64,000 nucleotides of DNA. Origin: Tubulanus polymorphus. Taxonomy: Eukaryota > Nemertea > Palaeonemertea > Tubulaniformes > Tubulanidae. Positions 21,497-45,352 of this stretch are shown piece after piece. The DNA lies in contig NC_134028.1 in NCBI RefSeq assembly GCF_964204645.1, forward strand, positions 27,006,153 through 27,070,152, read 5' to 3'. Both the position numbers and the translations under genes were made by a program. A model generated the notes under the pieces. It saw only the letters and a list, made by a program, of their open reading frames with translations, did not search any database and had not been told where the DNA came from. How positions within the stretch are numbered: position 1 is the first letter of the stretch; each line of letters begins with the position of its first letter.

Positions 21497-21806
21497 TTAC
21501 GTTTTCCCTCCATCTTCATTACCTTTATTTTCATCAGGTTTATTATCATCCTTCTTGTCATCGTCCTTCTTGTCATCATCCTTCTTGTTATCATTATCAT
21601 CATCCTTTTTCTCATCATTATTTGGTTTGTCCTTCTCATCTTCATCATTCGGTTTATCATCACCTTTATCATCATTCTTATCGTCTTTATTCTCCTCGTC
21701 ATTTGTTGGTTCATCGTCATCTGAATCATCGTCGTCTTCATCCTTTTTCGGAGGTTCTTTTTCCGGTTGGTTTAGTTTCATGATCAAATCCTTCCACTTC
21801 AACCAT
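21497..21806 (-). CDS. Alternative terminal exon of the coiled-coil gene: acidic Asp/Lys tail
   Basis: The acceptor TTGACAG precedes 21806 and the frame runs to a stop at 21497. With the last base of the previous codon it begins RWLKWKDLIMKLNQPEKEPP and continues as about 75 residues almost entirely of Asp, Lys, Asn, Glu and Pro. It accepts the phase-2 end of the exon at 24576-24757, so the junction reads TVTR-WLKWKDL. Isoform length through this exon and without the 25.8-26.2 kb exon sums to 980 residues with no frame break, which supports the model. The highly charged tail is likely disordered; its role is unknown. Confidence 0.6.
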
Positions 21807-23327
21807 CTGTCAAGAAAAATAAAAAACAATTATTCAAAAGTTAAAACAATTTCGTGATCAACAGTTTGTAATATCTGATTTGTATCGAGTAGTTTACAAT
21901 TGCATTTAACATTGTTAAATTAATATTTTTGAATTACAACCTTTTCTTATTTCGTCTGGTAGAAACTGATTGATGTTTTATCAAGAGTTTAATCTGCTCT
22001 CCTTACACAGAACACTCCCTTCCGTATTCATTATAACAGTGTGTACTCCGTACAGACAATAGATTCTAAAATACAGTCAAATCTGCTTAATCCAGATTTG
22101 CTTCATCCTAATTTTGATCTTATCCACATACGCTCCAACGCATAAATATACCTAACGTGTTTATTAATTTGGACCATAAACTGAATGGATTTCATCAGTC
22201 CTAAATAATCTGAATTAAGCCGATATTATATTGTATAGCTTATCTTTCAGCCCAGGAATATGCAGTATTCCAAAGTGTCCGTATTGTACACTAGCAAATA
22301 GACCTCAGTCTAGCGGGCCACTGGAGGATACATTATAGTCCGTTCCCCAATGGTATACAACACAATCACAACCAAATTGATTCTTACCATTTATTCATTA
22401 TCAAATATAAACATATCTAGAAATATAAATTTGTTATACAGCTTTTCTATTCTATACATTAATCGAAAAAGTACAACATTGAAATTAAAATGAAATTAAA
22501 CATTATCTAATAACAATAACATAAAACAGAATATAAATCTATATTTCTATGTAGATATCACATTAATGCTATAATTTGGTGCAAGGATCATCCATTGAAG
22601 TAGTTTCTTTCTAATGGATTACAAGATAAGCCGTAAGATAATCTTAATTTATCCAATTTCTGTTTGATCACAGTTTGGCTAATGGTAATTCAATCATTGA
22701 TTCATAGAGATCAAATTACATTCAGCTTCTAACATGTGTTATGTAAGCAGCTTGTTTACAACAACCGTTTTTATCAGATTAGTTTCAAACTTTCAATTAC
22801 CTGATATTACAGTATGTTCAAACTTACAATTGTAATTAGACTGAATATATTTGTAAACTTTTACTGCGTCATTTTAAGGGTGGCCACTGACCTGGGTTAA
22901 ACTCTAGGAATTTCCAAAAACTTGGAAAATTCTGAGAATTTGGATAACGCTATTGAACATGCGTCTTGAACAATACGCGATTCAATGAAAAATGGATGAA
23001 TTGTTACATTTATAACCTGAAATTTTCTCAGATTTATTTAGGGGATATTTCGTGTAACCTTATGGACAAATCAGGGAAACCTAAGGGGGAAAGTGGAGCC
23101 ACCCTGATTTTGTAAGCTTCATTTTAAATTGAGTCTAAAAGACTGTTCTACCAAACAGTGTCATGCGCTAACAGTCCGTGTCCTCGGCCCGGGCACAGGC
23201 TACCAGTCCGTGTCCTCGGCCCGGGCACAGGCTACCAGTCCCTGTCCTCGGCCCGGGCACAGGCTACCAGTCCGTGTCCTCGGCCCGGGCACAGGCTACC
23301 AGTCCGTGTCCTCGGCCCGGGCACAGG
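21807..23327. other. Intron between two alternative 3' exons, with a MITE
   Basis: AT-rich stretch with no exon recognised. It holds the likely 3' untranslated region of the isoform ending at 23328, including most copies of a 32-bp minisatellite, and a MITE at about 22075-22235. Confidence 0.45.
22075..22235. mobile_element. MITE with pogo/Tigger-like ends
   Basis: Starts ACAGTCAAATCTGCTTAATC and ends with an inverted counterpart (AATCTGAATTAAGCCG). Similar ends are found in copies at 51.05-51.21 and 52.66-52.84 kb. The CAGTCAAA start resembles pogo/Tigger-type MITEs; the assignment is by memory of such ends only. Confidence 0.5.
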
Positions 23328-23356
23328 CTACCAGTCCGTGTCCTCGGCCCGGGCAC
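23170..23356. repeat. 32-bp GC-rich minisatellite, 6 copies, overlapping a coding end
   Basis: Six copies of CAGTCCGTGTCCTCGGCCCG plus GGCACAGGCTAC. The copy nearest 23356 lies inside the minus-strand terminal exon and encodes its last residues (ARAEDTDW and stop); the other copies fall in the 3' untranslated region. Confidence 0.93.
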
Positions 23357-23484
23357 GGGTCGGATTACGTCCCGATCGATCGCGTGATATAAGAGATTTT
23401 CGCCGGCCACGTAAACTCTCGACGTCCGGCTCCTCAGGCGGGGTCAGTTCTACTTTAGGCGCCGGGGAACCTTTGCCGGGAAAC
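23328..23484 (-). CDS. Alternative terminal exon of the coiled-coil gene: basic RS-rich tail
   Basis: From the acceptor CACGAAG (AG just above 23484) the frame runs 52 codons to a TAG at 23328. It accepts the phase-2 end of the exon at 24576-24757, giving TVTR-FPGKGSPAPKVELTPPEEP and then a basic, serine/arginine-rich segment (LRGRRKSLISRDRSGRNPTR) before ARAEDTDW. This is the reverse in charge of the competing terminal exon at 21.5-21.8 kb. The isoform would be 929 residues with no frame break. Confidence 0.6.
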
Positions 23485-23891
23485 CTTCGTGATACAAGAT
23501 GCCAACGAACGTACATCAAACGTGATTTCCACACTAACCATCTAAACGGTGAATTAAACAGAAAAATAAAAACAGAGAAACTAAATAAATAACTCACATA
23601 ACAAAACACAAAACATGCTCCTGTCTCCCATCAATCGCTACAGCTTGGATCCGTTGCTCTTAAGTTAGTTAGGCTAAAATTGATACCTCCTTTTTCTGCT
23701 GAGCTTAGATATTGACCCAACCGGCCACCTATCTATCTACCCTGTATATCGCTTGTCTTTTATATCATGATCAAGTAGTTAACCATAAGAGACCTGCCAG
23801 TTATAGAAATTAACTCAAATTTTATTGCAGTTTACAAATGACACGGCTCATTAGGAGAAACAAGGTATCATTTTTGTTTAGATTAATCATT

Positions 23892-24012
23892 AGTTCCACA
23901 GTTGTGAGTTACGTAAGGGACTCATAGTTTAGATATTGAAAAGAACTATTTTTAACTGATTTGAATGAGTTAATTTTGAATCCAATTTTAATTCAACCTG
24001 TGGAACTGGGGC
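23892..24012. mobile_element. Short MITE with GTTCCACAGTTGTGA ends (copy 1)
   Basis: Begins AGTTCCACAGTTGTGAGT and ends AACCTGTGGAACTGGGGC, which is inverted. Similar short elements with the same ends are present near 29.51, 39.26 and 43.30 kb. All are in introns of the coiled-coil gene. Confidence 0.5.
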
Positions 24013-24374
24013 CTGATACATAAATACTGGCTCTGTGAAAATGCAGTTTTTATTGTCACCGTGTCACTTGTGTTAGGTTCATCTTAATAAACTTTTAAGC
24101 AACTGATGCTGGTTGTTTGAGCGAGCTGATTTCATGGAGAGGCAGACTGCTCAATAAACACATACAAAGTAAATCTATGATAAGCCATGTTTTAAATCTA
24201 GGAAAGCCACTAACATTTAAACATACAAAACAAAGTATGCAAGCAGCATGCAACACAACATTGCAGAAAGTGGAAACAAACTGTGAACTGATATCAAAAC
24301 AGACAATTGAAACTTTGATTTTTGATATGGTTATTTAACGCAGCTGTCAATCTGCTGTATGTAGCCCCAGCCTA

Positions 24375-24472
24375 CCACACTAGCCCCCACCCGGTCTAGT
24401 GTGGCAGGGTTCCGTGCTGTGGCTGAGTCTAGCGATGCCATCAGGTTTGAATCCCTGTCGGGATATCTGAAA
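24375..24472. mobile_element. Solo end of the foldback element family
   Basis: The sequence CGGTCTAGTGTGGCAGGGTT through CCATCAGGTTTGAATCCCTG is one arm of the elements at 14.75-15.08 and 41.5-41.8 kb. No opposite arm is visible. Confidence 0.55.
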
Positions 24473-24575: not shown

Positions 24576-27500
24576 CTTGTTACAGTATAAAGACTCCACT
24601 TATTGACAGGAGGTGCAATACGCTCAGCTTCAATACGATTCGGTTGACCTTCAGGTTTGATAAATAATCGCGGCTGATTTCCGAGTCGTAGAAACGGTTC
24701 CAGTTGTACTTTCAGTTTATCAAACTCATCCTGAAGTTCTTTTACCTCATCAACTCGCTGTGTGTTGTTAATAGAATGAAAATTGAAGACGGTTTGGTTT
24801 AGTTTGTGAGCGTAGCATTCAATGCAAGAGGTACTCGTACTGGTTAGAGGAAAGTGCACACTTATAGAGTCGTGTTTGTAAAATTCATTCAATTTATTTT
24901 AAGAGCAATATGTAAGCATCTATGGGGAGAGGGTCACTTCTTCATAAGACATGTCAAACGGGGGGACGTTAAAACACTTTCCTCTAAACAGGTGTCTAAT
25001 TCCCGAAGCACACAGCGCAGGGAAACACAGAAATAAAGGATAGAAACATGTTCCATGTGTCATGTGTGTATCCATAAAACAAGAAACATGGTTCCTGAGA
25101 TAAAACACGATGATTACATGTTTCTGTGTTTCCCTGCGTTGCCTGTGTTGGGCTAAAATGCGCAGGTGTATTGAATAATCACAATGGGTTGTTATAATTT
25201 CACTGCAAGGAAAGAATTTATTGAGGAGGTCTTCAAATGCTTCATGTTAGTCGTAAAATCAGTGCTGAAACAAGAAATATTAGCATCAGTAGAAAATAAT
25301 TATGAGCAGTTTGTAGTCTTAAAACCAAGTGATAAATTCCACTGATAAATTCTCAATAAACAAAAGAGTACATTTTGTACACGTAGATGAAGGTTAAGGT
25401 ACCCAAAACATTGAACAATATGAACTGAAAATCATCATGAACGAAAAACAAAACATCTAACGATAAAATCTATAAAAGCTCATATTATTACTCATATTGT
25501 CTAACAGTGGTTTAACGCTTAGACCAGGAGCAAGTGAACACACCTATCCTGGATAGACATTTCAAACTGCTCTAAAAATCACAAATCAATGAATGATAGG
25601 AAACTAATTGTTAATAGTTGCAGTAGGTGAAAGGAGGGAAGGAATGACTGTGCAGCTGATGAGAGAAGGGAAGGATTGACTGTGCAGCTGATGAGAGAAG
25701 GGAAGGATTGACTGTGCAGCTGATGAGAGAAGGGAAGGATTGACTGTGCAGCTGATGAGAGAAGGGAAGGATTATGACTGGTGCTGAGCAGGTGTGAGGT
25801 GTAGTCATCACTTACTCCTCTATCTCACTGAGCCGACGAAGAATCTTTATTCTCCGATGGTTTCTGCTCTGGGTTACTATTACCGGTATTATCATCTGGT
25901 TTTTTGTTCTCATTACCAGCAGCATTTTCATCCGGTTTTTTATCTTTATCAGCAGCTGTATTTTCATCAGTTTTACTATTATTGATAGGTTCAGTTTGAC
26001 TGGCTCTATCGGACATTGGTTCAGTTTGACTGGCTCTATCGGACATTGGTGGTTGTTTGTCAGATGGTTGTTCATTGTCCTCATCTATTTTTGGATTTTC
26101 TTCCGCTTTTCGATTATCATCCAGATCTTTCTCAACGTCGTCGATCGATATTCGTAGTTCTTTAATTTGATCTCGAATTGTGTTTATTTCATCCTTTTTC
26201 TAAACGGGGAGCAGGGTTGGGGTGAAGGAGGGAGGAAAATGGAATTGGAAAAAAACTTAAAATGAATATAAAACATAAACAATTTGAACAAAAAAAAAAG
26301 TTAATATACAGTCAAATTCCTTTATAATAACATAGTTGGGATGGTGGAGAATATGGCACCTTTAAAAATGGTATTTCTGTTGAATTAAACTTAGGTTCTA
26401 CATAAATATTCTTTTGCCATTTAGTGAGCACCGGTAATAACATTAACTAGGGGTCCAGGGACAGCATGCCCACTTCCCATGTCTGAAATGCTCGACATAA
26501 CTCATTTTTGATTTCAATGTAATAGGATAAACAAGAATCTAGATTTTGTCTACAGTTGGATGAACAGATGATGAATAAACAGTAAACACAATAGCCTGCT
26601 GGGGTTTAGCCCCGGGAAGTGTTATAATAGAAGTTGACTGTAAATAAACAAATATAACTAAATCTAAAATTCAAAAACTTTGTGATGTAACTGTATTTGA
26701 ATGTGCTATGTGACAGGGAGGGAGGGGAGGAATATTACTTACCAGTTTTTGTTCCGATTGAATCTTCATTCCGAGCACGGTTTTAACGGTTTGTATCGAC
26801 TCCGCAAGTTTACGAATACTCGCTTGTAACTGTAAAAGTAAAATTGAAAAAAATAACTCTTGATCGACAGTGAAATTCTGTGGGTCAATGATTCAGGTTT
26901 GATTAAATACAAAGAAACAACTAACGATAAATATTTCAATGGAAATACAACTGATAATTTTAGTTCAGTAACCGATCAAACTCTGCCTTACTCAGACAAT
27001 GTTGTTACCGCAAATATTTCTCTGGACACCGAGTCGACTATCAGGGAAATTAGTAGTCATTTCATGAAAAGCGTTTTGTTAAATTCACCGTCTTGAGAGC
27101 AGTTAACAGAGTTGACCGGCACCGAGAAAAGAGTAGCTTCAAATATTAAACTGTAAATGACACATGGATTTAAGACAGTTTACATACAACTAGTGCAGTG
27201 GTAGAAAATGTGCTGAGAAATATTTCACTAGAAATTGATACATTTTAGCAACAGAAGCAAATAAATAGAAAATCCTGTTAGAGAGATGAAGTTACTGATG
27301 AAACACCAGCGTCCAGTTTTATAGATGTGGATGCAAAACAAATCCTGGGAACATTTTGAAATTCGTCAGTTATTACCACGGTTTCTTACTGATACTAAGG
27401 CGGTTGTCACCCGGGTTAAGGATTTACTTACCCCTAGTGGTAATATAGATACAGTCTATGAAACCGGGCCAGGTGTAGTAAACAATGTTAATAATTAGAG

Positions 27501-30347
27501 GGAGTTCCAAGAGAATGGAACGAAAGAGTAACCAATAGAAAAACCAAATGTAGTAGTTTCATTTTGAAAGACACGACCACACAATACACAATATCAATGT
27601 AATATACCTGCTCAATATCTGCCTCAATCTTTGACTGTTTTAGATACATAAAAATATGCATTAAAAAGAAAATACATTCAACCGCATTCGCACTTAATAA
27701 AGCTTTTCGCACAGAAGAATAAGATAATACTTTTGGAAAGCAGTGTGTGTGTATTTTGTTTGTGAAGTTCACTTCAAACAAGGACAACAGGCCTTTTTAT
27801 GAGATTCATAGTGTGCAACCTAATGACTATCATTGAATATGATTTGTGAAGAAACTTATGTAGTTTGTACATGTGTTTGTGTAAGTGTACATGCATATAT
27901 CACAGATGTACATGCATTATGGGCAACAATAAAAGATAGTCGGCCCAGGGGTTTGACTTGATCCCCAAACCTCATGTAAATCCAAACGTATAAACGTACG
28001 CGTGTTACAGATTCTGTAGAAATGAAGATGAATTTGACTACCTTTTACTGCTGCAGCTATCTACAAATATCTATATATGGCCTACAGTGTTCACCAGATG
28101 AAGACGTCAATGCTTACATTATCGAGGTCCTCCCTACTCGGTCCATCACTCGGTTTAGCATTCAATTTTTCGAGTTCTCTACGAATTGATTCCACATCTG
28201 AAACTCTACAAAATATATCATACAAACATTTAGATGATGAAATTGAAAAGTACTGAATCCAGTTCTGACAGAAATTGGACTCGTTTAACACATTTAACTT
28301 ATCAAAAATGAACAACAGTGATTCTAGCTTAAATAATCATCAAATGAGCTGTCTCATTACTGAAAATGACTCAGAGTCAGAACTGTGGACATCAATCCTG
28401 AACTAACACATTATCATAAAACGATACCTGTTATCAATCTCTGATGATATTCGTGCCGACAAATCTCCGTTTAATAAATTATATTTTTGATTCAACTCAT
28501 AAACCTATAAAAGATGAATATAATTTCCTCATTAAACCTATGAATGCCGGTAGATTCTATGGATACACCATGTGTCAGATGCATGTACAGTTAACGTTAC
28601 CCAACTCACACTAACTGCGAATGGCAAAAGAAGTCTGAGCTAAAGATTATTAGAAGAAATCCAAAAAAATAATAATAATAATAATAATAATTGACATTTA
28701 TATAGCGCAGGTATCCGAACTAGAGTCTGTTCAAACTTGGTATTATTACCCCCAGCCTATAACTCTATTCCATGTATCAGTCATCTCTCCCTGGGGAGAG
28801 GTAACATCCGAGCAGCTACTAGGCGCTCAGGAGTCATCTATCAGACCAGGTACCCATTTAATCCTGGGTAGAGAGAGGCAATGAGGATAAGTGTCTTGCC
28901 CGAGGACACTACGGCAATGTACAGAGTTCGAACCCATGACCGGGCTTCCCACAGTCGAATGCTCTAACCGCTCGGCCACACTGCTCCTAAATAATCATGT
29001 CTTTTTCTAAGTGTTTGCCATGTCCAAGTTAGGAGAAAGTTTACCGTGATCACTTTCACAAAAAAGGTTAACCTAAAAACTTAGATAAGTTTGAATTGTT
29101 GTCCGTGAAGTAATAGCAATTAAACCAAAAATCTGAGTTACACCCTTTTGTGAATCTGGACCTCGATGATTGACAGCTTACATCAGTGGGTAATTTAGTC
29201 TGTAATTCCTGTAACTGTTTCAGATTTGCGCTCATATTTTCCTGCCAGCGACTAATTGCTTCGACCTTCTCTCGAATATTCTCTGACATCACATTCGACG
29301 CCTACCGAAGAAAAAATGTACAAAATATTAATGACGTATTTCACTAGAATATTGATTACAGTCGAATGAACAAGTTCTGTTAGATCTCGATTGCTGATCA
29401 CAGACCAATGAATGGAATAGATTACCTCCATCAACTCCTTGTGCTGATGTTATGCAGCAATAATAAAAATGTATCGAAAAATTATTACATTTCAGTGAAA
29501 TTACATTCAGGACCGAGTTCCACAGTTGTGAATAAGAGTTAACTCTGAGTTCATTCTTAATGAGTTGACTCCTGAGCTAAATCTAAACTCTGAACTGTGT
29601 GGGTTCAATCCTATATCAAACACATTTAACATTCTATGCGTTTACTTGTAAAATATCATAAGAATAGTTCTTTTCTAGTGTCTAGCTGTTGTTCCCAAAA
29701 CAAGGTTCTAAGGTTTACATGTTGTAAGATCGGCTGGTATCTCAAGTCTAGTCTAACCTGCTACCACTATCTAGCTAGTCCCCCTTCCCCCGAAATGAGT
29801 TCTAATGACGGATCGGCTTGTATCTAATTTCTAAACATTTATCATGCTAGCCATTTTCCTGAAATGAGGGGGTGTAGCATAAGTTCATCAGCTGGTATCT
29901 CTAGTTTAGCATCTAGCCATTGCCCAGAACATGGGGTTCTAGGTGTGACCCATGAAATCTGTTGGTGTTCATCAGACTATAGGTAGAAATTGCTCACGAT
30001 TCAAACCTCTCGATACTTTGAATTAAGGGCATCGATATAGCTTTAAACATATAAAGCACATACAACATAACGATATAGTATACCTCGGGATTCATTTGTT
30101 GCCTCCTAATTGCCTGCAAGCAGCATTTCATAATAAAACAAAATTTGTATTTAATCGGGTGCTGTTAGTAAAGAGAATGATTTGATAGTCTGGGTAAAAT
30201 ACTTACAGCTTGTATTCGACTTTCAAGTTTATCTTCGATCTGTGATATTTTCACGTTTAGAGACAGAAGTCGGGTATCCATGTCGTTTAACTGACGAATA
30301 GCTGATTGTTGACGCTCTTCGATCGCGTCAGAGAGATCCTTACGAAT
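24576..30347 (-). CDS. Large coiled-coil gene, downstream exon set (isoforms that skip the 3.6-kb exon)
   Basis: Exons, read on the minus strand, at 30207-30347, 30084-30113, 29426-29443, 29182-29301, 28428-28504, 28118-28205, 27608-27634, 26743-26829 and 24576-24757 form one phase-compatible chain with GT-AG borders. Three are microexons (30, 18 and 27 nt; AIRRQQMNPE, HKELME, SKIEADIEQ). The chain encodes further coiled coil (IRKDLSDAIEERQQSAIRQL, EKVEAISRWQENMSANLKQL, IRRELEKLN) and ends RVDEVKELQDEF...IAPPVNKWSLYTVTR. The first exon begins at phase 0 and can receive the phase-0 end of the exon at 35267-35344, bypassing the 3.6-kb exon and the short terminal exon at 30929. The heptad pattern carries smoothly across that junction. 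I do not recognise the family; the many coiled-coil exons resemble ciliary or centrosomal proteins. Confidence 0.65.
25640..25772. repeat. ~32-bp minisatellite, about 4-5 copies
   Basis: Tandem copies of GACTGTGCAGCTGATGAGAG plus AAGGGAAGGATT. It lies in the intron downstream of the alternative terminal exon at 25825. Confidence 0.88.
25825..26199 (-). CDS. Alternative terminal exon of the coiled-coil gene with duplicated SQT motif
   Basis: From an acceptor (AG just above 26199) the frame is open for 124 codons to a TGA at 25825. It accepts the phase-0 end of the exon at 26743-26829 and starts with coiled coil (KKDEINTIRDQIKELRISID), then turns acidic and disordered. A 13-residue unit, MSDRASQTEP with flanks, is perfectly duplicated. 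No in-frame donor is compatible with the phase-0 exon at 24757 except a weak GTTGAG early in the exon, so this reads best as a further alternative 3' end or as an exon with an internal donor. A strong GTAAGT donor at about 25813 belongs to another frame. Confidence 0.5.
   Translation of the reverse strand, partial: KKDEINTIRDQIKELRISIDDVEKDLDDNRKAEENPKIDEDNEQPSDKQPPMSDRASQTEPMSDRASQTEPINNSKTDENTAADKDKKPDENAAGNENKKPDDNTGNSNPEQKPSENKDSSSAQ
26311..26643. mobile_element. MITE with ACAGTCAA terminal inverted repeats
   Basis: The left end is TACAGTCAAATTCCTTTATA and the right end is its imperfect inverted complement, TTATAATAGAAGTTGACTGT. The ~330-bp interior has no ORF. Same type of end as the smaller elements at 22.1, 51.05 and 52.7 kb. 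Confidence 0.6.
28665..28990 (-). mobile_element. tRNA-derived SINE with conserved central domain
   Basis: Read on the minus strand, the head (from about 28987) has GTGTGGCCGAGCGGTTAGAG and GGGTTCGAACTCTG, a Ser/Leu-type tRNA A and B box pair. The body contains AAGTGTCTTGCCCGAGGACA on the plus strand and GGTACCCATTTAATCCTGGG, a block shared by many deuterostome and marine invertebrate SINEs (I think the Nin-type domain). The element ends in a run of ATT units next to GACATTTATATAGCGC. It is inserted in an intron of the coiled-coil gene. Confidence 0.75.
29514..29605. mobile_element. Short MITE with GTTCCACAGTTGTGA ends (copy 2)
   Basis: Starts GAGTTCCACAGTTGTGAATA and contains the AGTTAACTCTGAGTT interior seen at 43.3 kb. 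The far end is degraded. Confidence 0.4.
29675..29965. repeat. Degenerate ~95-bp tandem repeat, three copies
   Basis: Three diverged copies share GATCGGCTGGTATCTCAAGT-like, TCTAGCTGTTGTTCCC-like and GGTTCTAAGG-like blocks in the same order. It is in an intron of the coiled-coil gene. Confidence 0.45.
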
Positions 30348-30928: not shown

Positions 30929-33900
30929 TCATCTTGCCTTCTTCAAACGTGTCAATAATTTCTTGTTTTTAGACCTAGGCTGAAAACAAATGAAAATTGT
31001 TCATGCCTTCAGTAATACTCTTGAGTTTCCAATATGAAGTGTATAAATGTGTGTAGTGGTTAGGCAGGTATGTATGATTACCAGTGAAACTGCTGTAGCC
31101 GGTTGCTGATCGGATGCTGGAGGAGATACAGGTTTTACATCAGTTTGAGTACAACCTGTTGTCTTGTTAGAGGAAGTAATGTTGATCATTCTGTCCGGCG
31201 AGGAGGGTGTATCAACAGTAGCTGACAATGGTGAAAATGTCGATACCCTTGATTGACATGCCAGTATCCTATCACCTCCCCGTTCATTAATGGGAGGTTC
31301 TTCTGTACCTTCTCGCTCAGTGTAAGCAGGTCCTCCTCTACCTCCCTGTTCAGCACAAGGAGGTCCTCCTCTACCTCCCTGTTCAGCACAAGGAGGTCCT
31401 CCTCTACCTCCCTGTTCAGCACAAGGAGGTCCTCCTCTACCTCCCTGTTCAGCACAAGGAGGTCCTCCTCTACCTCCCTGTTCAGCACAAGGAGGTCCTC
31501 CTCTACCTCCCTGTTCAGCACAAGGAGGTCCTCCTCTACCTCCCTGTTCAGCACAAGGAGGTCCTCCTCTACCTCCCTGTTCAGCACAAGGAGGTCCTCC
31601 TCTACCTCCCTGTTCAGCACAAGGAGGTCCTCCTCTACCTCCCTGTTCAGCACAAGGAGGTCCTCCTCTACCTCCCTGTTCAGCACAAGGAGGTCCTCCT
31701 CTACCTCCCTGTTCAGCACAAGGAGGTCCTCCTCTACCTCCCTGTTCAGCACAAGGAGGTCCTCCTCTACCTCCCTGTTCAGCACAAGGAGGTCCTCCTC
31801 TACCTCCCTGTTCAGCACAAGGAGGTCCTCTACCTTCCACCTCAGTACATTGAGTCCTACATGATGATACAACCACTGCTGGCAATTCTTCTTCGATTCT
31901 AATTTCTGGAGTTTTGTTGTTTCGAATCAAAACTTTTAAAACTGCTGATTTCCCATCAAATAAATGTCGTCCATGTTGGAATTCTAATTGAGTATGACGC
32001 CTTGACTTGGTTTGTGTCTCAATACTATGAAATGATGGAGTCACATCTGTCTTACACCATGGAGTTGGATTCCTACAAGTAGGAGGCTTGCGATTGGGTT
32101 TCAATTCTGAATTCAGTTGCGGGCTAAGTGTTTGAGGTACTCCAACTGTTCCAGTGTTGTACTGACGCTCCAATCCTCCAGTGTTGTGTAGGAGTTCAGC
32201 TCCTCCAGTGTTGTGTAGGAGTTCAGCTCCTCCAGTGTTGTGTAGGAGTTCTGCTCCTCCAGTGTTGTTAGTTTCTCCTGTGTTGTAGTTTGTTTGAGTG
32301 GAAGTAGTCTGATATTTGTCAGTCGAGTTCCGCATCCAAGATTCCACTTTACTTCGCGCTAATTCTGAAGGCGTACTTTGTCTCGATTTAATGAATTTCT
32401 GTCCGGTCAAAACGGATGAATTTCGTGAATCTTTACGATAAACTTTATGCGAACCGGAATGCGCTGGTTTTACATGGAGCTGATGATAGTTAATCCCTGT
32501 AGTTTCTAGAGAAGGAGAGGTTTGAGTTGTCGCGAAGTTTGTTAGATGAGATAAGCTGAATGTTGTTTGAGTTTGGTGGATCAATGCATTTAGTTGTGAT
32601 GGCGAAGTTTGCGCTGATTTCGTATTGAAATAAACACTTTTCCATGGATTTGAGAAACCATCGACAGGAGTCACTTGAGCTCGGAACCTTCTGCCAACTT
32701 GACTCCCAACAAAATCATACTTACTACCAGTATCAACGTGCTGGTTTGATTCAGTGGTTTTTGGAAGTGCTGCCGACAGCTTCTTTGTTCTGGAGACACG
32801 CCCCTTTTCTTTAACAGAACCGTTTGTTTGAATTGGAATTTTGGAAGTTTTTAAGAAGACTGGGTATACAAAAGTTGTCTGATGATGTATAGGTATGTTT
32901 TTACTGATCGGAGGAGATAGCACAGGTACAGGACTTGTTTGAGTTAGTGTATCCACTAGTTTCCGGTGACCAACACCTGAAGTGATATCCGGGTCCTTGT
33001 TGAGCACAGTGAATTTTTTTGAAAGATGCGTTATTGCGGGGAAACTGATATTTCCAGAAGATCCTGCGATTTTCAGTGGAGGTTGTTTGGACTGAGATTT
33101 TGATGGTGAATTATACAAGGGCTGCTGCTTCGAGGAACTGATATCTTTTGCGATCATTTTTGGAGGCAACTGTTTTGCTGATGCTTGTAGATCCACTTTT
33201 TCTCTTTTAGCAGGATAAATAGTTTGTGTTGTTGAACATTTTGACGCCAATTTAGGAAACATAGTGTTAGTAGATGAGTCAGTCATTTTTGTACGTGTCT
33301 GTTTCACTGAACTGACACAGGATTGAACGTGTTTCGTGCAAGGAAATCTAACAGGAGAACAAGCCTTGTCCAGAAATGACGGTTGAACTGGAGATGAACT
33401 AGAAAAACTATTAGAACAAGAACAGTCATCCGAGGATGTCTCAAAATCCGGAGTTTTAGCAGTTTTATGAATCTTATCACGGCGTTTGTGATAAGAATCG
33501 TCGAGTGACTCAGAGATTTGTGTTTGACACGAGAAGTCTTCAGTTCTAGTAGCATTTGTGTTCGGGACCGGAAGATACCTCGAATCAGAGAGTAACAATA
33601 GATTCGGTTCGTAAACCGTATTCTCGTCGATCGGCGACAACGCGTAGATCTCGATTTTATAAACGTCGGAATTTTCATCATCGTCTGAGTTCGTAGTCGG
33701 GGACGACGCGTCGCTGAAATCTCTGATCGGGGAACAAGCTCGATCTGAGACGTAAACGATCTCTGAATCACGGAATCCAGAATCAGTGAACGCTGAACTA
33801 CTGTGACTGATGTAACTAGATATTGACGAATCGTTTGAGTTTTCGCAGCACGAGATTTCATTCGAGAATCCTCTTTCATCGTCGTTCCCGTCATCGGGGA

Positions 33901-36900
33901 TTGTTATCGGGGAACTACCGTGATCGCAGAATCTTTTATTCTGACTACGGATTAAAACTCTGCGATGAATCCGACGAAGAGAGTTCGTCATTTCGTCGCG
34001 ATCGTCGTCGAGATTCGACGCGAAGTGATTCGCCGATCTCTGACAGGAATTCGCCGCAGAGGAATCGAAACTTCGTAAATTCATGTTCATCGATTGCGAT
34101 GAATCTTTCGGACAAGTTAAGAATCCTTCGATATCTTTATGACAGCCCTCCTCCTTATCAAGGATTATTACTGTGGCGAGTGAGGAGGGCTGTCTCCGAA
34201 AATTCTGGATCGACAACTGAGGAATATCGATTCCAGCGAGTTTCAAACTGGCGAACGACATCGGTGACAGCGGCGAACAGACTTTATCATTCACATCGAG
34301 TAGATCAATACTTCTCACAACATCACGAGTTGTTATAACTAATTCAGCAGAGAGATGGTCAGCGGAGAGATGGTCAGTGGAGAGATGGTCATCAGAAAGG
34401 TGGTCAGCAAAGAGGTTATCAGTAGAGATGTCATCAGCAGACAGTTCATCTGGGGAATTGACAGCTACGTAAGAGTCATTCCTACTTTCTGTTGAAGAAC
34501 TGAAATCTTCACCGATTTCTAGAGATTCAGCGTAAGTCACAGCCGTCAATGAATTCACATGACTCATCGGGGAACAGACCTTGTCATATCTAGTAAATGT
34601 TTGTTGACTAGGTGTCTGTAGAGGTTTTATGCTCGTAATGCTGGTCTCGAGGTCTATGTTGTCGTAAGGTACATTTTTATGCGGTTTTGATGTTACCTGT
34701 ATGAAAAAAGATTTTCAAAAACGTGATTAATTCTGCATGCATTGAAATAATGAGACATACGTCAGATTGGTGAGGGGTAGCAACAATGTGTGTGCTCGTT
34801 AAAAAATCTAGAGGACCCAGTTCCACACAGATAGACCGTCTGTAAAAAGGGCGTTGCCAGTAATTTTTGTGGGGAGATCAAAATCGCCAATAACTCAGCA
34901 ATCAGCAGATGGGGTTCCTCCCTGCATAATATTTTGAATCTTTTAGTGTATTTTTCGAGCATTAGAAACGATTTTGCAATGTGAAAACGTTACTTACTCC
35001 TCCGTCAAAAAAATATAATGATGAATGAGCAGAACTTTGAAATGGTTGTCATTTGAAATCCCCAAACCCCTGGCCCCTTCTGGCAACGACCTTGATAGAA
35101 ACAAATGTGGAACCAGTTCCTGGTGACGAAAACTTCTACATACTTCAAATCTAGTACAAAAGAGAGCAAATATTTCACCGTGTTTTGTAGAAGGAAGGAA
35201 TCTATTCCTAAACAAACAGTGAATGAGAGAGATAGAAACAACATTAAAAACAACATCAATTATTACATCATCTTTCAACTGTTGTTTGATTGTATCTATA
35301 TTGTCAGCTACTAGTTCACCAATTCCATCTTGTAATTTATTCACCTGTCGCGATAAACAAACTCGACCTTAATATAACTGTACGTCACATCATCATCACA
35401 CGTCAAACATATACATGTATATTGATGATCTATAGAAAATGATAGATCCTGACACACGTGAGCTGTGAAACAAACTTCAAACAAACAAAAAAAGTAATGA
35501 TTGCAATAGAAACCTGTAAAGGGTTTAATATGTGTGTTTCATGTGGCACACATTGAGCCCTACCTCACCCCAACCAAAACACTCGCAACCCACCACACCC
35601 CTACCCCACATTAAACACAACCCAATCAAAGAAAATATCCACAGAAGAAAACCTAAGAGAGTATCGATGTTTCACTCAATATTCTCAAAACGTCTCTAAC
35701 ATTTCCTTCATAATTGTGGAGTTTTCTTCGATCAAATCATAAACAGTTACTCGCTTGTGGAAACCAACTGACAATGCACCCTAGAAACTGCTACACCAGA
35801 ATCATAGTGCACAATGTACACATCACACACAGATACAGAACCCAGTTCTAACAAACATTGTTTTATCCTGAACCCGCTGAGAGCCATTCAGGGCATAATT
35901 AGTGGGTTCGATATTTCATTTCACAGTTAAGGGGCGTGAGACAAGAGAAGAACCATCGACCAAGAAACTTCCCCACCAGGATTTGAATCCTGGATTGACG
36001 AGATCAGTGAACTGATGGCTTAAACCACTCGGCCACTTAACACTTCTCCAAAATAAACATCAATCGGTGTTTGTGTAGAACTGAGTCCTGTATGAAATAT
36101 ACTTGTTGTTTTAGATGTTCAAGCACTGATTCAGTTGGTTGTGAGTCTATGATGAACGTTCGATCGTCGCTGTCCTATTAGAAACAGGGATTATAATTAT
36201 ATTCATCACATCCACCCGAAATATAATTCACATTCTTAATGACGAGGAAAACAGCTTTAATTACTGCATCAGGGGCTGATCTAGAGGGTGGTTTAGGATG
36301 TCAGGACCTAATACACAGTGCATGTTATTATTATCATTATTGATATGAATACACTATTTGAATGAGTGATGTTTAATATAGAACTTACCCGCACAGCTAG
36401 AGCATCCACTTTAGCATTAACCCCTCCGATAGCTTCCTGTAGTGTCCCCGTAGCAAGTGATAATTTATCCTGAAGATTATCAACTCTTTCTACAATCTGT
36501 TTCTCGTGTTGCTTCCTGAAATATCACAAAATTAATTTTGAAAAATTGATTTTACACTTTGAACCAGCTGCAAGCTATGTTAGCAAACACCCAGTGTCCC
36601 CATCTCCCACTCCCTCTCCCTCTCCCTTGCTCTCCTCCCTCCCTCTCACTCGCTCTCCCTCTCACTCTCCCTCTCCCTGCTCTCGGCCCTCTCCCTCTCT
36701 CCATCTCCCTCTCCCTTGCTCTCCTCCCTCCCTCTCACTCACTCTCCTCACTCTCCCTCCCCCTGCTCTCCCTCTCCCTCCCTCTCTCTCAGTGTCACTC
36801 ACCTGGACTGTATTTCAGCTGTTATTACACGATCGAGTTGTTTTTTAATCTCCTCTATTTGTTTCTCTAGAAGTCCGACTGATTCATCAAGACGTTTTGA

Positions 36901-39900
36901 ATTATCGTTACATTTATTTCGATCAGTCTGAAAGAGTGAAATAAATCAGTTTTACAATTGAGACTTAACATTCCTGGCAGCCCATAGTCCTCAAATAAAC
37001 ACTCATTGCCACAAAATGTTAGAACGCTGATGTTTGTGGGCTACGTATCCCTGTCACTGAGATACTTACTCTTAATGATTCTTTAATAATAATCAACTCA
37101 TCGTCTGCGATCTTTTTTAAAGACTCCCATCTGCGTTCATTCTCTTCGCGTAGCATTCTCTCGTAATCTAATCGTAATTTCTGTTCAGTGTGAACCAACT
37201 ACAAATACATACAACATCTATCTATCATCAAACACAACTACAGTGGCAAGTGAGGATCCACCGAGTGGCGCTAGTGTGCAGTAGGAAGTCAACTACTGCA
37301 GTGAGGGTTCCACCAGGTGGCGCTGTATAATGCAGAGCTCGGGCTCCACAGTTGCCCTTGAACTTGGACTCCAGATATGTATTTGTACTTCTAAAGGTAA
37401 GTTAAGTATAGATGCTGCTCCTCGCAGGGTTTAATGTGTAACCCAAACACTGGTTCAACGAGTTAGATGTACGTTTAACTTACTCTTTCAACTTCTAAAT
37501 ATTTCTCTTGCGTTTCTTCCCTCAATTTGATCTCTTTCGATAGTATTTTCCTGCTGCATTCCTCGACTAATTCAGCGATACGATTGTGAAGTCGTAATCG
37601 TTCAGCCTCGGCCGCGTGTTCTTTCTCTCGTGCCATCGTATCGAGAGCGTGGATCGCTTCCTCTCGACGTCGGTTCTGTTCCGATATTGATACTTGTAAA
37701 TCATTCAATCTACACAAAATGCACAGAAATCATTCAAAAATCAAAATTCAAGGATTTTTATCTAAACTGGTTTTTGAGTTATTGCGGTAACTTGATTTGT
37801 ATGAGGTACAGTTAAACTATACTCCTCCCGTCCGGGGGATATAATAACCACGAGTAACAGTTTGATACAGTATACCTCACCTACTCACACAAACTAAGAA
37901 TGGCGTGTAAGTCGGCTCCACATAAGAAAATGATTTCTTTTGCGTTAGCCTGCAGGGTTTAATGTATTTGAATTTCGAGGGTTTAGTGTATTAATACCTG
38001 GCTTGTATGGTTTGTTCATTAAGTCTGCGATCAGAAGTTTCACTGTCCTGTCTGTTACGCAATTCCAGTAAAACATCTCTCAGTTCTGAGAGTCTGAAAA
38101 TTAAAATTCACACATCTCGAATCAAGGCTATGCATTCACATGTTTAATACTCATGTATATAATGTTTATCTATGAAATCTTGCGAATCATTGCAATGCGA
38201 TCATCCCCAGGGATGGAGATAATCGCAAGGTCAATCTACGGCGCGCGACTTCAGTTTGAAATTCTACTCGTAACATAGTTAAATCAACGGTTAATTCTTA
38301 CCGAACTTCCACTTGTGAACGTAATCCATGAGTCGTTAATTCTGCCTGATTTTGTGTTTCATTATTCTTGCGAACTGATTGCAACTAAAAATAAACCAGG
38401 TCGAAATAAGAACAATTAGAATTTGCTGATTTTTTTATCATGACGTGAGGGATAAAAATATAATTCATGAAATTCATAGCTGTCAAAATCGTGTGGTCGT
38501 AACGTCTGTAGGAATCATTTTACATCATCTACTAAGTGCATTCGTTCATCACCAGATTTTCAGTTACTACTTTGGGGCAAATGGAAATTTGATGTAATGA
38601 ATGAATCTATCTATTAGTTCAATAATGAAACTCATTCAAACGAATAATTCGCATGTAATTGCAAACACGCACAAAACAGGCTTCAATATCTGGTTTTATA
38701 GATGACATTCATTCATTATAAATGTAATAGATTGAACCGGTCATACAATAGGAAACTATATCGACGGTACAAAAAAAGACTAAAAACGAGTTCTCTCAGA
38801 TCTGTTTAAAATTGTTTCATGCAATAGAAATAATGACGTGTCTAAAAGAAGCGGGTTTGGGATATAGCGAGGTATATACAAAATAAAAACCCTTCACTGA
38901 TATAAAAACAATATTTCATATAAACAAGAAGAAATAGTTATTCGTCACTACGAGTAGGGGGAGCGTAAGGGGAGCGTAAGGGGAGCGTAAGGGGAGCGTA
39001 AGGGGAGCGTAAGGGGAGCGGTAGCAATGTATAAGAATAAAGCAGGGGCTTCGCTGATCCAAGCATAGTTTGAGAATTTTACAGGGAATTAGTTTTTTAA
39101 GCGATTAGGGTTCAGAAATAAGCCTTAAAACCCTCATCCAAATCTACACTGAATGTGTCCGAATATATAGAAAACTTAACTAACACCATTGACTGCATTT
39201 AGACTCGAGATTGTTTCAGTCTATCCCAGCTACACCGTGAAATATCAATCAAATCATGACCTAGTTCCACAGTTCTGAGTAAGCTTTAAAACTCTGAGGT
39301 AAAATCAGTTTGTTTTCTATGTTTCCACATCAAGAGTCAAATTTCAACCCAGAAGTGTGAAACTGGCTCTGGAGGCGTGTGTTGGGATAGACTGAGATTC
39401 AACCCTAGCACAATCCATGCAATACTTACCAGCTAAACACAAGAGAATAGATAGAAATAACAAAATATTTTTATTTTCTTATTTTATTGAGCTGCAAAAT
39501 GTCGAGTCGTTCATGGATGAAGAAAAAGGCGTTTTGTTTGAGGTCCTGGTTTCTCCTGCGCTGACCTTACCTGCAGCTAGCTCAGCTCAGGAGGTCCTGT
39601 TTCAGCTGGACCTGACCTTACCTGCAGCTAGCTCAGCTCAGGAGGTCCTGTTTCAGCTGGACCTGACCTTACCTGCGGCTAGCTCAGCTCAGGAGGTCCT
39701 GTTTCAGCTGGACCTGACCTTACCTGCGGCTAGCTCAGCTCAGGAGGTCCTGTTTCAGCTGGACCTGACCTTACCTGCAGCTAGCTCAGCACAGGAGGTT
39801 ACCCGCAGCTAGCTCAGCTCAGGAGGTCCTGTTTCAGCTGGACCTGACCTTACCTGCGGCTAGCTCAGCTCAGGAGGTCCTGTTTCAGCTGGACCTGACC

Positions 39901-42900
39901 TTACCCGCAACTAGCTCAGCTCAGGAGGTCCTGTTTCAGCTGGACCTGACCTTACCTGCGGCTAGCTCAGCTCAGGAGGTCCTGTTTCAGCTGGACCTGA
40001 CCTTACCCGCAGCTAGCTCAGCTCAGGAGATCCTGTTTCAGCTGGACCTGACCTTACCTGCGGCTAGCTCAGGACAAGAGAAACTTTGAGCGAGCTATGC
40101 TGTGCTCTCTGTGTTGGAATCACTAGGTTATTTTGAACTATATTGCGCAGGAGTTTGTTTACAGAGGGAAAGGATTCTTAGTTCATTGAAAGCAGCAAGG
40201 TCCAGTTTCACAAATAAGTTTAAAATCTCAAAATTGATTTATTTCTTCTTTAATTCAAGTCGATTTAGGCGCAAGTCAGTCCTTGTTGTGGAATTGCCAG
40301 GGGTGGGAAATGGAATTGGTATTAATTGAACAGTTAGTAAGAGAATGTTTACCGTTTGTCTTTGAGCCTCTTCCAGTGATTTATTACGTAGTTTCAACTC
40401 GTTAGCGATACTAGCAAAATCTAATTGTTGATTTTCTGTTTTTGCTTTCAACATTCGAACGTCTTCGATCAGCTGATAACACAATCGTTCCAGTTGTGAT
40501 TTACCTCTCATCGCTTCATCCACTTCATTCTTCAGTTCTTGAATTCTGAGATAGAATTTCAGAAAACAATCTACATTAAACTATAGCCAGGATCAATCAT
40601 CACATGTGGATTATGTGACTCTGGTTAAATTAGCCCGGACCGGTTTGACGCTATGTTTAATTAGAGTCACATAAATCAATGCAAATCATTGAATTAATTG
40701 ATCTACAGGTTGACTATTAACAACTTTTTGAGTCAGAGACAAGAGGTTAAGGGGGAGGGCACGTGGAGAGAGGGATAGGGAGAGAAGAAAGGAAGAGAGG
40801 GGAGAGAAGAGAGAAGCTGATTAGAAATGGGAGAACAGAGAGTGCAGAAGAGGATAGAGGAACCGATGAGGGGAAGGGAGAGAAGAGGAGTGGAGAGGGG
40901 GAGTGGAGAGGGGGAGGGGAGAGGGGGGAGTGGAGATATTTTACGTACCTCGTATTCTGTAGATCTCGTTTTGACAGTAAATCCTGTTGTCCACCGAGAA
41001 CGTTCTGTTCGATAGTTTTACTCTGATTTAACAGATCACCAATGAGTGTTCGTTCCTGAGCTCCTCGTTCCTCAACGCGTTGAAGCCTCATCGCTAGTTG
41101 ATTATACAGATCACTGCCGCCACGTACAGAGTTCTCTAACTGCTGCCGTGAGTTCCTCTCTTCCCTCGCGAGGTCCTCATTTCGACGGATCACATTTTTG
41201 AGTTCACTCTGAAGTCTGACGACCTCCTCTAGTAACGCTCGGTTTGATTTCTCAGTAACGGCGAGACGTGTGTCTAACTGTCTGATTCTGTCGGCTGCCT
41301 CGAGACCCTCGAGGGCAGCGACTTTGTTGTAAGGCACCAGTTGAGTTTCATTGTTAGTTAACGACGATCGACCGTGAATTCCGGGAAGCGTGCTGAATTT
41401 CGACGGAAATTGTTGATTATTCGAAAGCCTGAAAAAAACAGAAAATGTATTTAAGACGAAGCGACTTTCAAAACTTCAACGGCAAACATCGATTGGTCAC
41501 ACCTACATACACCCCCTTTCATCCATCCTCCTCTCGACAGGGATTTGAAACTGATGGAATCACTATACTCAGCCACGGTATGAAACCCCGCCACAATAGA
41601 CCCGGTGGGCAGGTAAACACACAGCTTTAGATGATGTCAATATTATCCAATCAGATATCTCCTCTTTAGCCTGGGTTTTTCCATGATATTTTCCTCAGGG
41701 ATTAAAAAGCGAGCGATCTGATTGGTGCAGCACCAGGTCTAGTGCGGCAGGGTTTCGTACCACAGCTGAGTCTAGCGATACAATCAGGTTTCAATCCCTG
41801 TCGAGAAAGGATTTCATCGGGAAAAAACCTTTTCCAGAATTTCTACAAAATCATGGCTCCATTTTTTCTGATTTCGACAAAACTCAGAAACTTCGCCTTT
41901 TGACATGAAGTGCCTTTACATATAAACATTAGAGACACTCGAAATATTGAGGGTCTCACAAAATTCTCATCCTGGATTCGCCCCAGGCACTCGATATATA
42001 CACATCTATAACGTTTGGACTCTTGAAATGATATTTCTGCGAATATAAATCCGTAAAATCGGCGGAAACAAATTGTAATAATACTTCAATTCTAACAGAA
42101 TCGCGTGAATTATTGATAAACTTCTACCTCTACACGTTAACAGGATTTATAAAACCACTTCAGTTTCACTGCAGGGAAAAAAATAGAAAATATTATCGTA
42201 AAACGCGCTGCGCATGATCTCTATCCCGCTGCAGTCTGTACTCGTGATTGTTGCTATAGTTACACATGATGCTCGATGAAAGCAAGTCACGTTATTGTTT
42301 CCGAGTGTAATAAAAAATTCAAAAACACACGGACCACTCTTTGAGAATGGACCGACTGCGTTAAGGGGTGCGTCTGTACAGCTCTCTCCGAGTGGTGGTC
42401 CGGACCACTTCGTCCGGACCACTATGTACGGGGTAAGTCCGAACCACAGTCTGGACCATTCAGAGGATGAACCTGGTTCAATCTGAGGTTAAGCCAAGTC
42501 ACTGAGAGTGAGCCTGGCCCGGTGTAAGTCTGAACCACCAAGAGCCAGTGTGTGGAGCAGTGTGTGGACCACTTGAAGGCTGGAGATTATAGACAATACG
42601 TGTTACCAGTACCTCTAAACCCATATATCATCAGTTTCACCAAATTCAGTTCTAAATAAACCCTCCTTAAAGCCAAACGCACACAATGCAGACAGAATCA
42701 AACATGTTTCATCTTGTTTCATTTTTGTTTCTTAAAACATATTTCTAGTGCCGTGGTGCGTCCGGCATCAACTCAAATATTCTAATTTGAAAATTAAATG
42801 TAAGTTTAATTATTACAGTTCACTGTATCAATAAATATAGTTATTTCCCGAAATGAAAATACCAAAAAATATGACCTACCGAACTTGTGTTGGTTTCAAA

Positions 42901-45352
42901 TCATATCTGGCAAAAGGGTTCGACATGTAACATGTATTTCCATTGATAAAGAGTAGGTAACTATTTAATCAGTAGCAGCAGTAACTGATGACTGAGAGGA
43001 AACATTCACACCTCACCGTGCCGTACATTACCCCACATATATCCTTGTTCCGACTGTTCAAACGTTTCAAACTGATACGTTTTAACGACTTGAAAATTAT
43101 CGAGTGGTTGAATAATTGAAATCGACATACATACTTCAATATAGCGTCTAACTCGCCTATAACGATATCGCCTAAACCTTATCATAGGCCTACGTATAAC
43201 TTGCCGAATATAACAATTTCTAATCTATGGCAATTTCTTGAATGGGTATTTTGATTATCTCCTGAAGATTGAAATACAGCCCAGATAGGAAACTAAACTG
43301 CAGGACCCAGTTAGTTAAGATTTGACCCTGAGTTAAAACATTGAAAATGAACTAACTTTTACTCAGAGTTAACTCTAACTCACAACTGTTGAACTGGATC
43401 CAGACTGGTAACTGACTAAACCATAGTCCGGTTAGTGACTAAACCACAGTCCAGTTACTGACTAAATTGTAGTCTGGTTACTATTAGAACCAGTCAGCTT
43501 ATAGACACAAAACCTAGTCTGCTTATAGACTATACCTCCAGTCTGGTTACTGACTAAACCACAGTCCAGTTACTGACTAAACCATAGTCCAGTTACTGAC
43601 TAAACCACAGTCCAGTTACTGACTAAACCACAGTCCAGTTACTGACTAAACTGATGGCTCTGTAAACAGCTGTATATAGGAAATACTTACACATCAGCTG
43701 GAACTGTTTTATCAACACGATGACTGTATGGATATTTCGTTGTAGCCATAATATCGACAATTGAAGAACTGTCCATATTCCATCATAAACAACGCAGCTT
43801 CCAGTTCGGTTCCTTAGATTATTAATATCTATTTGAAACTGAAACACTGTGCCGCTGATAACGCGTTCACGACATTGCCTTACAGATCCTGGATACACGT
43901 TGAATAACGGTGGATACACGCGTGCGCTGCTGGTATCGATACACACAGCGCGCAGTCACTGACACTAGTCAATTACACCTTCAATATGACACTGACTTAT
44001 TATCAATTTCCTCTAACTTTTTATGCCTTGATCCGATAACAAATTTCAAAACCCGCTATGTACAGAATTTACAGATTTTGAAAGATTAAAGATGAATTTT
44101 ATTTATCAAGAATTAAGATCAGGTGAACATTTTCAATGTGTTAAATTCTGTGGGTTTTAAACTGATTATCAGAGAGTTTACCGGGTAAACACATCCTATC
44201 GTGAATTCTTATACATGAAATGATATTATCACACTTAGTATTACAGCTATCTCTCTGTCTCTCTCTGTCTCTTCACAAGTGAAATAGTTACTTATTGATA
44301 AACCTCGCGGAGACCACTCAATAATAATAAGTGCTATGTAGAAACGTCCTTTTACAAATAATAGTCGTGGAATCGACATCAGAACAAAGTAAATAATAAT
44401 TCATGAGAGAATTTCACATACCGCGCCACGTATATATATGGTATAGGGGGTAATTCATAAGAATAACAACGTTCTTCATTAAAATAAATATCACAGTTTA
44501 AAACTCATGATCTCAGAACTCATCAAATCGGTATTTCTGGAGATAGAATAGTAAGAAAATACTGAAAATCAGGAACATCATTGGCAGTTGCGAATTTGTA
44601 ACAATTCCTATACAAAGATGTAAAACCTTGGCCTGCGAATAACCTGCAGTAGATTATGATTTAATTTCCGGTTTCCATGGATAAAAAGAAAGTGTTACCG
44701 GTGTAATATTATTACCAGCAGTCTTCATGTTCCGTGAATTATTCATAAATCAAGTCAAATTCATGACAGATTTTTTGTTTATAACACGCAATACTATAAT
44801 AATGAAGTTCTAACAAAACCATAGCAACTATCTCTCTCTCTCTCTCTCCCTCTCTCTCTCCCTCCCTCTCTCTCTCTCTCTCTCTCCCTCTATCTCTCTC
44901 TCCCTCCTCCCCCTCCCCTCCCCTCCTCTCCCTCGCCCTCGCCCTCTCCCTCTCCCTCTTTCTCCGTATCCCGTGGTACAATTATCCAATTACATTCATA
45001 ATGAAATCATCATATTTTTTATCGATCTCGAATATTTTTTTTAATGACTCGATGTTACTCTAGAACTCTACACGCTATTGACGGTACGTCGTTACCGTAG
45101 AAACAAAGACAACAAAAACAACTGTCGGTAATGATGAGTCAATCAAAACTGGAAACTTTCAAAACTGGAAACGGTTATCCCCCAGTTGAACAGTTATCTC
45201 TCTGAGTTGATCAAATCCAAATTGAAAAGTGAAAATTCAAATTGATTTTAAACTTACTTGACCAAATAATACTGGCCATCTTTATCCATAGCCTTAGCAG
45301 TTGATGAATCCAGGCTGAAAGTTAAACCATTTTTGTTCTTTCTCGGATCCAT
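30929..45352 (-). CDS. Large coiled-coil protein, long isoform with LC8-motif-rich C-terminal region (15 exons)
   Basis: Minus-strand exons 45258-45352, 43691-43768, 42880-42960, 40949-41428, 40353-40545, 38302-38384, 37998-38093, 37484-37709, 37070-37198, 36803-36927, 36389-36515, 36103-36174, 35267-35344, 31082-34696 and 30929-30979 all join in phase; their sum is 5,529 nt, 1,842 residues. The start is MDPRKNKNGLTFSLDSS at 45352. A short N-terminal region (SNPFARYDLKPTQVRLSNN) leads into the 159-codon exon with VVRLQSELKNVIRRNEDLAR, and then near-continuous heptad coiled coil through exon 13. The 3.6-kb exon is disordered. The terminal exon encodes PRSKNKKLLTRLKKAR and stop, a basic tail. 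I cannot name the family. The shape (coiled-coil rod plus LC8-like motif array) suggests a ciliary, centrosomal or other microtubule-linked scaffold; this is inference. Confidence 0.72.
31082..34696 (-). CDS. 3.6-kb exon of the coiled-coil gene: TQT motifs, CSP motifs and 11-residue repeats
   Basis: One 1,205-codon exon, phase 0 at both ends (acceptor AG at 34698-34697, donor GTAATC at 31081-31080). It starts VTSKPHKNVPYDNIDLETS. It contains four copies of a [KR]-[AV]-C-S-P motif (DKVCSPMS, DKVCSPLS, DRACSPIR, DKACSPVR), at least five TQT motifs (STTQTI ~33.2 kb, TLTQTS ~32.9, ATTQTS ~32.5, TSTQTN ~32.3, GCTQTD ~31.15) and variants (ETQTK, QTQTT, CQTQI), a run of DHLS repeats, four NTGGAELLH units and about fifteen GRGGPPCAEQG units. 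TQT is the core of the dynein light chain LC8 (DYNLL) binding motif. The exon is flanked by coiled-coil exons upstream and can be skipped. Confidence 0.7.
31332..31832. repeat. 33-bp coding minisatellite, ~15 copies
   Basis: Near-perfect copies of GGAGGTCCTCCTCTACCTCC plus CTGTTCAGCACAA. In the true minus-strand frame it encodes GRGGPPCAEQG, one Cys per repeat. The period is divisible by three and the array is open in at least three frames over both strands, which explains the overlapping spurious ORFs at 31186-31872 (-) and 31253-31864 (+). Confidence 0.95.
32150..32282. repeat. 30-bp coding repeat, four copies
   Basis: Copies of CTCCAGTGTTGTGTAGGAGT plus TCAGCTC encode NTGGAELLH units, with degenerate flanking copies (NTGGLERQY, NTGTVG, TGETNN), on the minus strand in the 3.6-kb exon. 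Confidence 0.9.
35955..36050 (-). repeat. tRNA-Leu/Ser-like SINE head or tRNA pseudogene
   Basis: On the minus strand: TGGCCGAGTGGTTTAAGCCA, then CCAGGATTCAAATCCTGGTG. A and B boxes are good and the T-arm pairs perfectly (CCAGG/CCTGG), but the anticodon arm does not give a clean 7-base loop. It is inside an intron of the coiled-coil gene. Confidence 0.5.
36595..36800. repeat. CCCTCT-rich low-complexity tract
   Basis: About 200 bp of almost pure pyrimidine (TCCCTCTCC-type units) on the plus strand, ending next to the donor of the exon at 36803-36927. On the transcribed minus-strand mRNA it is a long purine-rich intronic run directly downstream of the donor. Confidence 0.9.
38953..39022. repeat. 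12-bp minisatellite GGGGAGCGTAAG, ~6 copies
   Basis: Tandem copies of GGGGAGCGTAAG in an intron of the coiled-coil gene. Confidence 0.9.
39262..39373. mobile_element. Short MITE with GTTCCACAGTTGTGA-type ends (copy 3)
   Basis: Starts TAGTTCCACAGTTCTGAGTA and ends CCCAGAAGTGTGAAACTGGC (inverted and imperfect). Confidence 0.45.
39556..40078. repeat. 51-bp minisatellite carrying splice-donor-like sequence, ~10 copies
   Basis: Copies of GACCTGACCTTACCTGCAGC plus TAGCTCAGCTCAGGAGGTCC and TGTTTCAGCTG. On the minus strand each copy contains a perfect donor consensus GCAGGTAAGGTCAG. The array is in the long intron between the exons at 40353-40545 and 38302-38384 of the coiled-coil gene. Confidence 0.93.
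40740..40935. repeat. GGGAGA-rich low-complexity tract
   Basis: Purine-rich (GGAGAG-type) stretch ending just before the donor of the exon at 40949-41428. Confidence 0.85.
41515..41815. mobile_element. Foldback/MITE-like element with tRNA-like inverted ends (copy B)
   Basis: Left arm CGACAGGGATTTGAAACTGA and right arm CAATCAGGTTTCAATCCCTG are inverted copies. The interior CCAATCAGATATC is the reverse complement of the interior of copy A at 14.75-15.08 kb, so the two are the same family in opposite orientation. Confidence 0.62.
43300..43402. mobile_element. Short MITE with CCCAGTT...AACTGGATCC ends (copy 4)
   Basis: GGACCCAGTTAGTTAAGATT at the left and CTCACAACTGTTGAACTGGA at the right, with AGTTAACTCT inside. 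Related to the copies at 23.9, 29.5 and 39.3 kb. Confidence 0.45.
43404..43652. repeat. ~23-bp minisatellite, about 10 copies
   Basis: Imperfect copies of GTTACTGACTAAACCACAGT plus CCA. The array ends about 40 bp from the donor of the exon at 43691-43768 of the coiled-coil gene. Confidence 0.85.
44825..44965. repeat. (TC)n/(CCCTC)n low-complexity tract
   Basis: Long TC-rich run in the first intron of the coiled-coil gene. Confidence 0.92.

Follow-up and report, generated by a model that had tools for sequence, protein, structure and literature searches.

A CCDC154 orthologue in Tubulanus polymorphus with a giant in-frame exon and candidate alternative C-terminal exons

CCDC154 (Pfam PF15450) is the mouse ntl osteopetrosis gene. 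Its loss in mouse causes osteopetrosis and hearing loss; for vertebrates, an osteoclast and bone phenotype and, when the protein is overexpressed, G2/M arrest are described; the molecular and biochemical role of the protein is not known (PMC7889813). Tropomyosin genes swap the end of a coiled coil through an alternative C-terminal exon 9 (9a/9c/9d; PMC8152229), ankyrin-G and ankyrin-B carry a giant optional in-frame exon (PMC5422562), and multivalent LC8 clients such as ASCIZ hold several spaced TQT motifs in a non-coiled-coil segment (PMC5963919, PMC10046861). The gene described here resembles each of these in part. As in tropomyosin, a predicted coiled-coil dimer would change its end properties with a swapped last exon, whereas the ends here differ strongly in charge and length. 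As in the ankyrins, a very large in-frame exon adds a long segment to a common scaffold, its optional use being predicted here. Neither system is homologous to this gene as far as tested. The spaced TQT motifs recall ASCIZ, but here they are attached to a CCDC154 coiled coil and are known as predicted motifs. Given the tropomyosin last exons and the ankyrin giant exons, the term "unusual regulatory design", applied to this locus in an earlier sequence-only reading, was overstated; what appears uncommon is the confinement of LC8-type motifs to alternative exons of one gene.

The DNA is from Tubulanus polymorphus (assembly GCF_964204645.1, contig NC_134028.1). A stretch of 64,000 nt (the window) was analysed and all coordinates are window positions. 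After both strands of the region had been read, the exons of the gene were assembled one after another along the minus strand (Table 1). Eleven upstream exons (45352 to 35267) gave a stop-free run of 568 codons that closes in phase 0. The sequence-only reading had recognised these minus-strand coiled-coil exons and had counted 13 exons and 621 residues; an intron scan for the extra exons gave none that was convincing, and the count was lowered. Seven further exons (30347 to 26743) added 190 codons and likewise closed in phase 0. Four in-frame models were obtained, all with zero internal stops: the giant exon with its proposed tail (1789 aa), the acidic exon after 26743 (882 aa), and exon 24757-24576 followed by A (889 aa) or by B (921 aa). 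The four 3' ends, with stops at 30929, 25825, 23328 and 21497, and the main junctions were as originally proposed; the models also proved to be in frame, with the lengths given above replacing the earlier 1842, 929 and 980 residues. Donors at 35267, 24576 and 31082 had ordinary scores. Exons of this gene typically show a CpG excess (1.33 vs 0.63 in introns), and heptad periodicity was strong in both shared halves. An intronic 51-bp tandem array (39561-40080) has a strong donor-like CAG/GTAAGG in each unit and supplies many of the best-scoring unused donors of the gene.

Table 1. Exons and related features of the CCDC154 gene, in window positions
Feature	Position	Strand	Remarks
Exon 1	45258..45352	-	ATG at 45352, MDPRKNKNGLTFSLDSS...; donor score 9.4
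Exon 2	40949..41428	-	LPGIHGRSSL..., start of coiled coil; single copy in genome
Exon 3	40353..40545	-	Inside PF15450 match
Exon 4	38302..38384	-	
Exon 5	37998..38093	-	
Exon 6	37484..37709	-	
Exon 7	37070..37198	-	
Exon 8	36803..36927	-	
Exon 9	36389..36515	-	
Exon 10	36103..36174	-	
Exon 11	35267..35344	-	Closes upstream half (568 codons) in phase 0; acceptor weak
Giant exon	31082..34696	-	3615 nt (1205 aa) of non-coiled-coil type; either a last exon or an in-frame cassette
Coding minisatellite in giant exon	31324..31830	-	33-bp unit, 15.4 copies, 99% identical (GGPPCAEQGGR)
Proposed basic 16-residue tail	30929..30979	-	PRSKNKKLLTRLKKAR; not above chance
First exon of downstream CCDC154 half	30207..30347	-	Phase 0
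30-nt exon	30084..30113	-	
Downstream-half exon	29182..29301	-	
Downstream-half exon	28428..28504	-	
Downstream-half exon	28118..28205	-	
27-nt exon	27608..27634	-	
Final exon common to acidic, A and B forms	26743..26829	-	Phase-0 donor
Acidic exon with stop	25825..26199	-	Two DRASQTEP motifs; donor after 25816 would give 384-nt cassette
Exon alternative to acidic exon	24576..24757	-	RVDEVKELQDEF...NKWSLYTVTR; weak acceptor
Last exon A, basic	23328..23541	-	WLVWKSRLMYVRW...; stop within 32-bp tandem array
Last exon B, Asp/Lys-rich	21497..21806	-	WLKWKDLIMKL...

A profile search of the kind proposed for naming the family matched the 889-aa model to CCDC154 (PF15450) at 81.3 bits (E 7.4e-23), above the curated Pfam cut-off of 28 bits. 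Searched alone, the upstream exons matched profile positions 16-366 (E 2.6e-14), and those that follow the giant exon, searched separately, matched 345-529 (E 1.8e-11). As PF15450 is matched on either side, this is one gene with its conserved domain interrupted by the giant exon, and a division into two genes at 31-35 kb is largely excluded. The profile ends about where the alternative ends of this gene begin. No second copy of either gene half or of the giant exon was found across the whole 268-Mb genome. Judged by the profile and genome searches, the minus-strand gene is a CCDC154 orthologue present as a single copy, and a comparison of paralogues was dropped for that reason. A search for PDB relatives returned none.

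The 3.6-kb giant exon was confirmed as open: in its core no stop occurs over 960 codons (p about 2e-27 at an intron stop frequency of 6.2% per codon), and the core shows the exon-type CpG excess. It contains seven TQT motifs against 0.44 expected, a count reached in 0 of 5000 shuffles, and four D[KR]xCSP motifs where none is expected (likewise 0 of 5000). Synonymous codons differ between the four D[KR]xCSP copies, which argues for selection on the protein. Because the first of them lies ahead of the first Met (residue 44), the giant exon must be spliced from an upstream coding exon. By frame and motif content the giant exon is truly coding; codon-usage scores did not single it out on synonymous choice alone, a coding test that was too weak here. 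Tandem arrays had periods divisible by three in 6 of 6 cases within coding exons (the arrays of the giant, acidic and B exons) and in 1 of 7 outside (Fisher p 0.004). The encoded segment has no heptad periodicity, 23% S+T, a borderline charge-hydropathy value and one SKIP motif of the SxIP type. Motifs of this type bind EB proteins. The minisatellite in the giant exon keeps several reading frames open on the two strands and is probably variable in length between individuals. A transposon or repeat origin of the exon was considered and set aside, no other genomic copy having been found.

For the use of the giant exon, cassette and terminal splicing stand at roughly even odds, the cassette being slightly more likely. 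The sequence-only reading had treated the exon as a terminal swap for a longer coiled coil, closed by a basic 16-residue tail. As a true alternative last exon it would cut the coiled coil at residue 568; its stop would be 30929, or 31001 with read-through. Its acceptor at 34696 is strong (9.7), its frame runs on to a stop, it sits in the largest gap of the gene, and by eye CATAAA and AATATA variants downstream could serve polyadenylation. Against this, there is no AATAAA or ATTAAA between the giant exon and exon 30347 and no canonical poly(A) hexamer downstream of the tail, and exon-like CpG was not seen at the end of the giant exon, in the tail or in the read-through. Within the same 980 nt, three AGs outside exons (30857, 30434 and 30408) reach the score of the tail acceptor (7.0, at 30979), and the tail is not above chance. 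The phase-0 donor and a length divisible by three are what a cassette requires, and no acceptor in the interval after the giant exon scores better than 30347. The absent hexamer, the chance-level tail and the 3615 nt fitting a phase-0 cassette make use as a last exon doubtful, and we put it somewhat below an even chance; the terminal swap is not established, and splicing on to 30347 as a cassette accounts for the exon at least equally well.

That the exon may be skipped is something we infer solely from the family profile, and a constitutive exon, never skipped and producing one long CCDC154 with a large insertion, would also agree with the phase-0 junctions on both sides, the strong acceptor and a genome that itself gives no sign of skipping. 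This is unlikely, as the giant exon splits PF15450 near profile position 366 (of 530), and the stretches matched by the two halves adjoin there, with no room for a giant insertion. Constitutive internal exons of 3.6 kb are also rare. Still less probable is a separate gene nested inside a CCDC154 intron. The exon is self-contained, is not homologous to the rest of the gene and is absent elsewhere in the genome, but the D[KR]xCSP copy before its first Met would demand a private upstream exon; for this role the stretch between 36102 and 34720 offers only short candidates or ones with poor donors, and exon 11 is already in the right phase.

Downstream of 26743, alternative C-termini of opposite charge were supported for this one gene, with tail pI values of 4.4 (acidic), 11.3 (A) and 4.2 (B) and charges at pH 7 of about -13, +8 and -21 respectively. 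Exons A and B begin alike (WLVWKSRLMY, WLKWKDLIMK), follow donor 24576 in the same phase and both carry stops. Their start homology score of 32 was reached by A and B only among 1967 open frames after an AG in the window, and from this common start motif they are probably a pair of last exons that arose by duplication and exclude each other. The start of the acidic exon (KKDEINTIRDQIKELRISIDDVE) aligned in register with that of exon 24757 (RVDEVKELQDEFDKLKVQLEPF) at a score of 30; against 733 common coiled-coil positions the two segments reached at most 29, one point lower. This suggests that the acidic exon and exon 24757-24576 arose by duplication. As the acidic exon has a stop and both need donor 26743, the two would be exclusive. 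No in-frame Met occurs in exon 24757-24576 ahead of its end, and B and the acidic exon resemble their alternatives before the first Met of each. All three therefore need splicing from upstream. Exon 24757 has a very weak acceptor (-3.7 leave-one-out). The acidic, B and 24757 exons each have weak CpG support, 12-15% of intron windows being equally high. In an amphipathic-helix test of the WSLYTVTRWLxWK segment the moment was no higher than in shuffles.

A different arrangement of these ends is possible, though we consider it rather unlikely: the acidic exon would be a stop-containing cassette of 384 nt (26199-25816), and the first 27 nt of A (23541-23515) could double as a microexon joined to B. 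Nine nt past the acidic stop lies a phase-0 donor, GGA/GTAAGT (8.5), so that the exon may be a cassette marking the mRNA for decay (NMD), and the donor GAT/GTACGT (7.2) inside A yields WLVWKSRLI-WLKWKDLIM. However, the scores of these two donors are reached in 24.4 kb by 16 and 33 unconfirmed GTs respectively, AATAAA is present at 600 and 930 nt past the acidic stop, and the CpG density of A beyond its internal donor was matched in 0 of 1239 intron windows. A 32-bp tandem array (23167-23356) provides, in its first unit, the last codons and stop of exon A.

LC8-type sites were counted with the DYNLL consensus motif given in PMC3078936. The giant exon had nine sites against 2.4 expected (0 of 1000 shuffles) and the acidic exon two against 0.19, these two copies being one 30-bp tandem duplication; the coiled-coil halves and tails A and B had none above chance. 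At the level of motifs the LC8-type scaffold of the sequence-only reading was thus supported. With seven TQT motifs in the giant exon and two SQTE motifs in the acidic exon, the function that fits best, as a motif prediction, is optional docking of LC8. Elsewhere in the window, a plus-strand frame of 1831 aa (7487-12982) contains acidic low-complexity sequence, carries several LC8-type motifs (IQTD/CQTD) and has a coiled coil at its C-terminus. It had no Pfam family above cut-off and is a second putative LC8 client in the window.

Our main reading, to which we give a probability of about 0.6, is that of a CCDC154 orthologue with a shared 568-residue half in which the choice of 3' exons would set partners and end charge. 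All products would begin with this common coiled-coil half, and the usual product would extend the family coiled coil through the seven exons from 30347 to 26743. It would then end in the acidic exon with its two LC8-type SQTE motifs, or continue into exon 24757-24576 and finish with A (basic) or B (Asp/Lys-rich), the duplicated pair of last exons. Optional inclusion of the 3.6-kb exon would add about 1205 non-coiled-coil residues, with the LC8-type TQT array, inside the domain, and its SKIP motif could bind EB proteins. In such a dimeric rod, partners (dynein light chain LC8 and perhaps microtubule ends) and end charge would both follow from 3' exon choice. A stronger proposal, in which LC8 motifs lie solely in alternative exons and splicing toggles assembly of an LC8-zippered rod while flipping the charge of its end, is speculative and the less probable by some distance. 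If LC8-type motifs do occur only in alternative exons, CCDC154 gains a testable idea of function, dynein light chain dependent assembly, and an isoform in which to look for it; otherwise the gene is an instructive example of exon duplication and of a giant exon in a coiled-coil gene.

Other genes were identified on the plus strand of the window. A WD40 gene resembling GRWD1 (17486-20088) is convergent with the CCDC154 gene. Exons encoding a Death effector domain and a Death domain (49190-50322) mark a FADD-like gene, and a rhodopsin-family GPCR (7tm_1) occupies a single exon at 58364-59644. Between these, a long minisatellite (55548-56414) has frames open on both strands, with WLVYQSIGGGE repeats.
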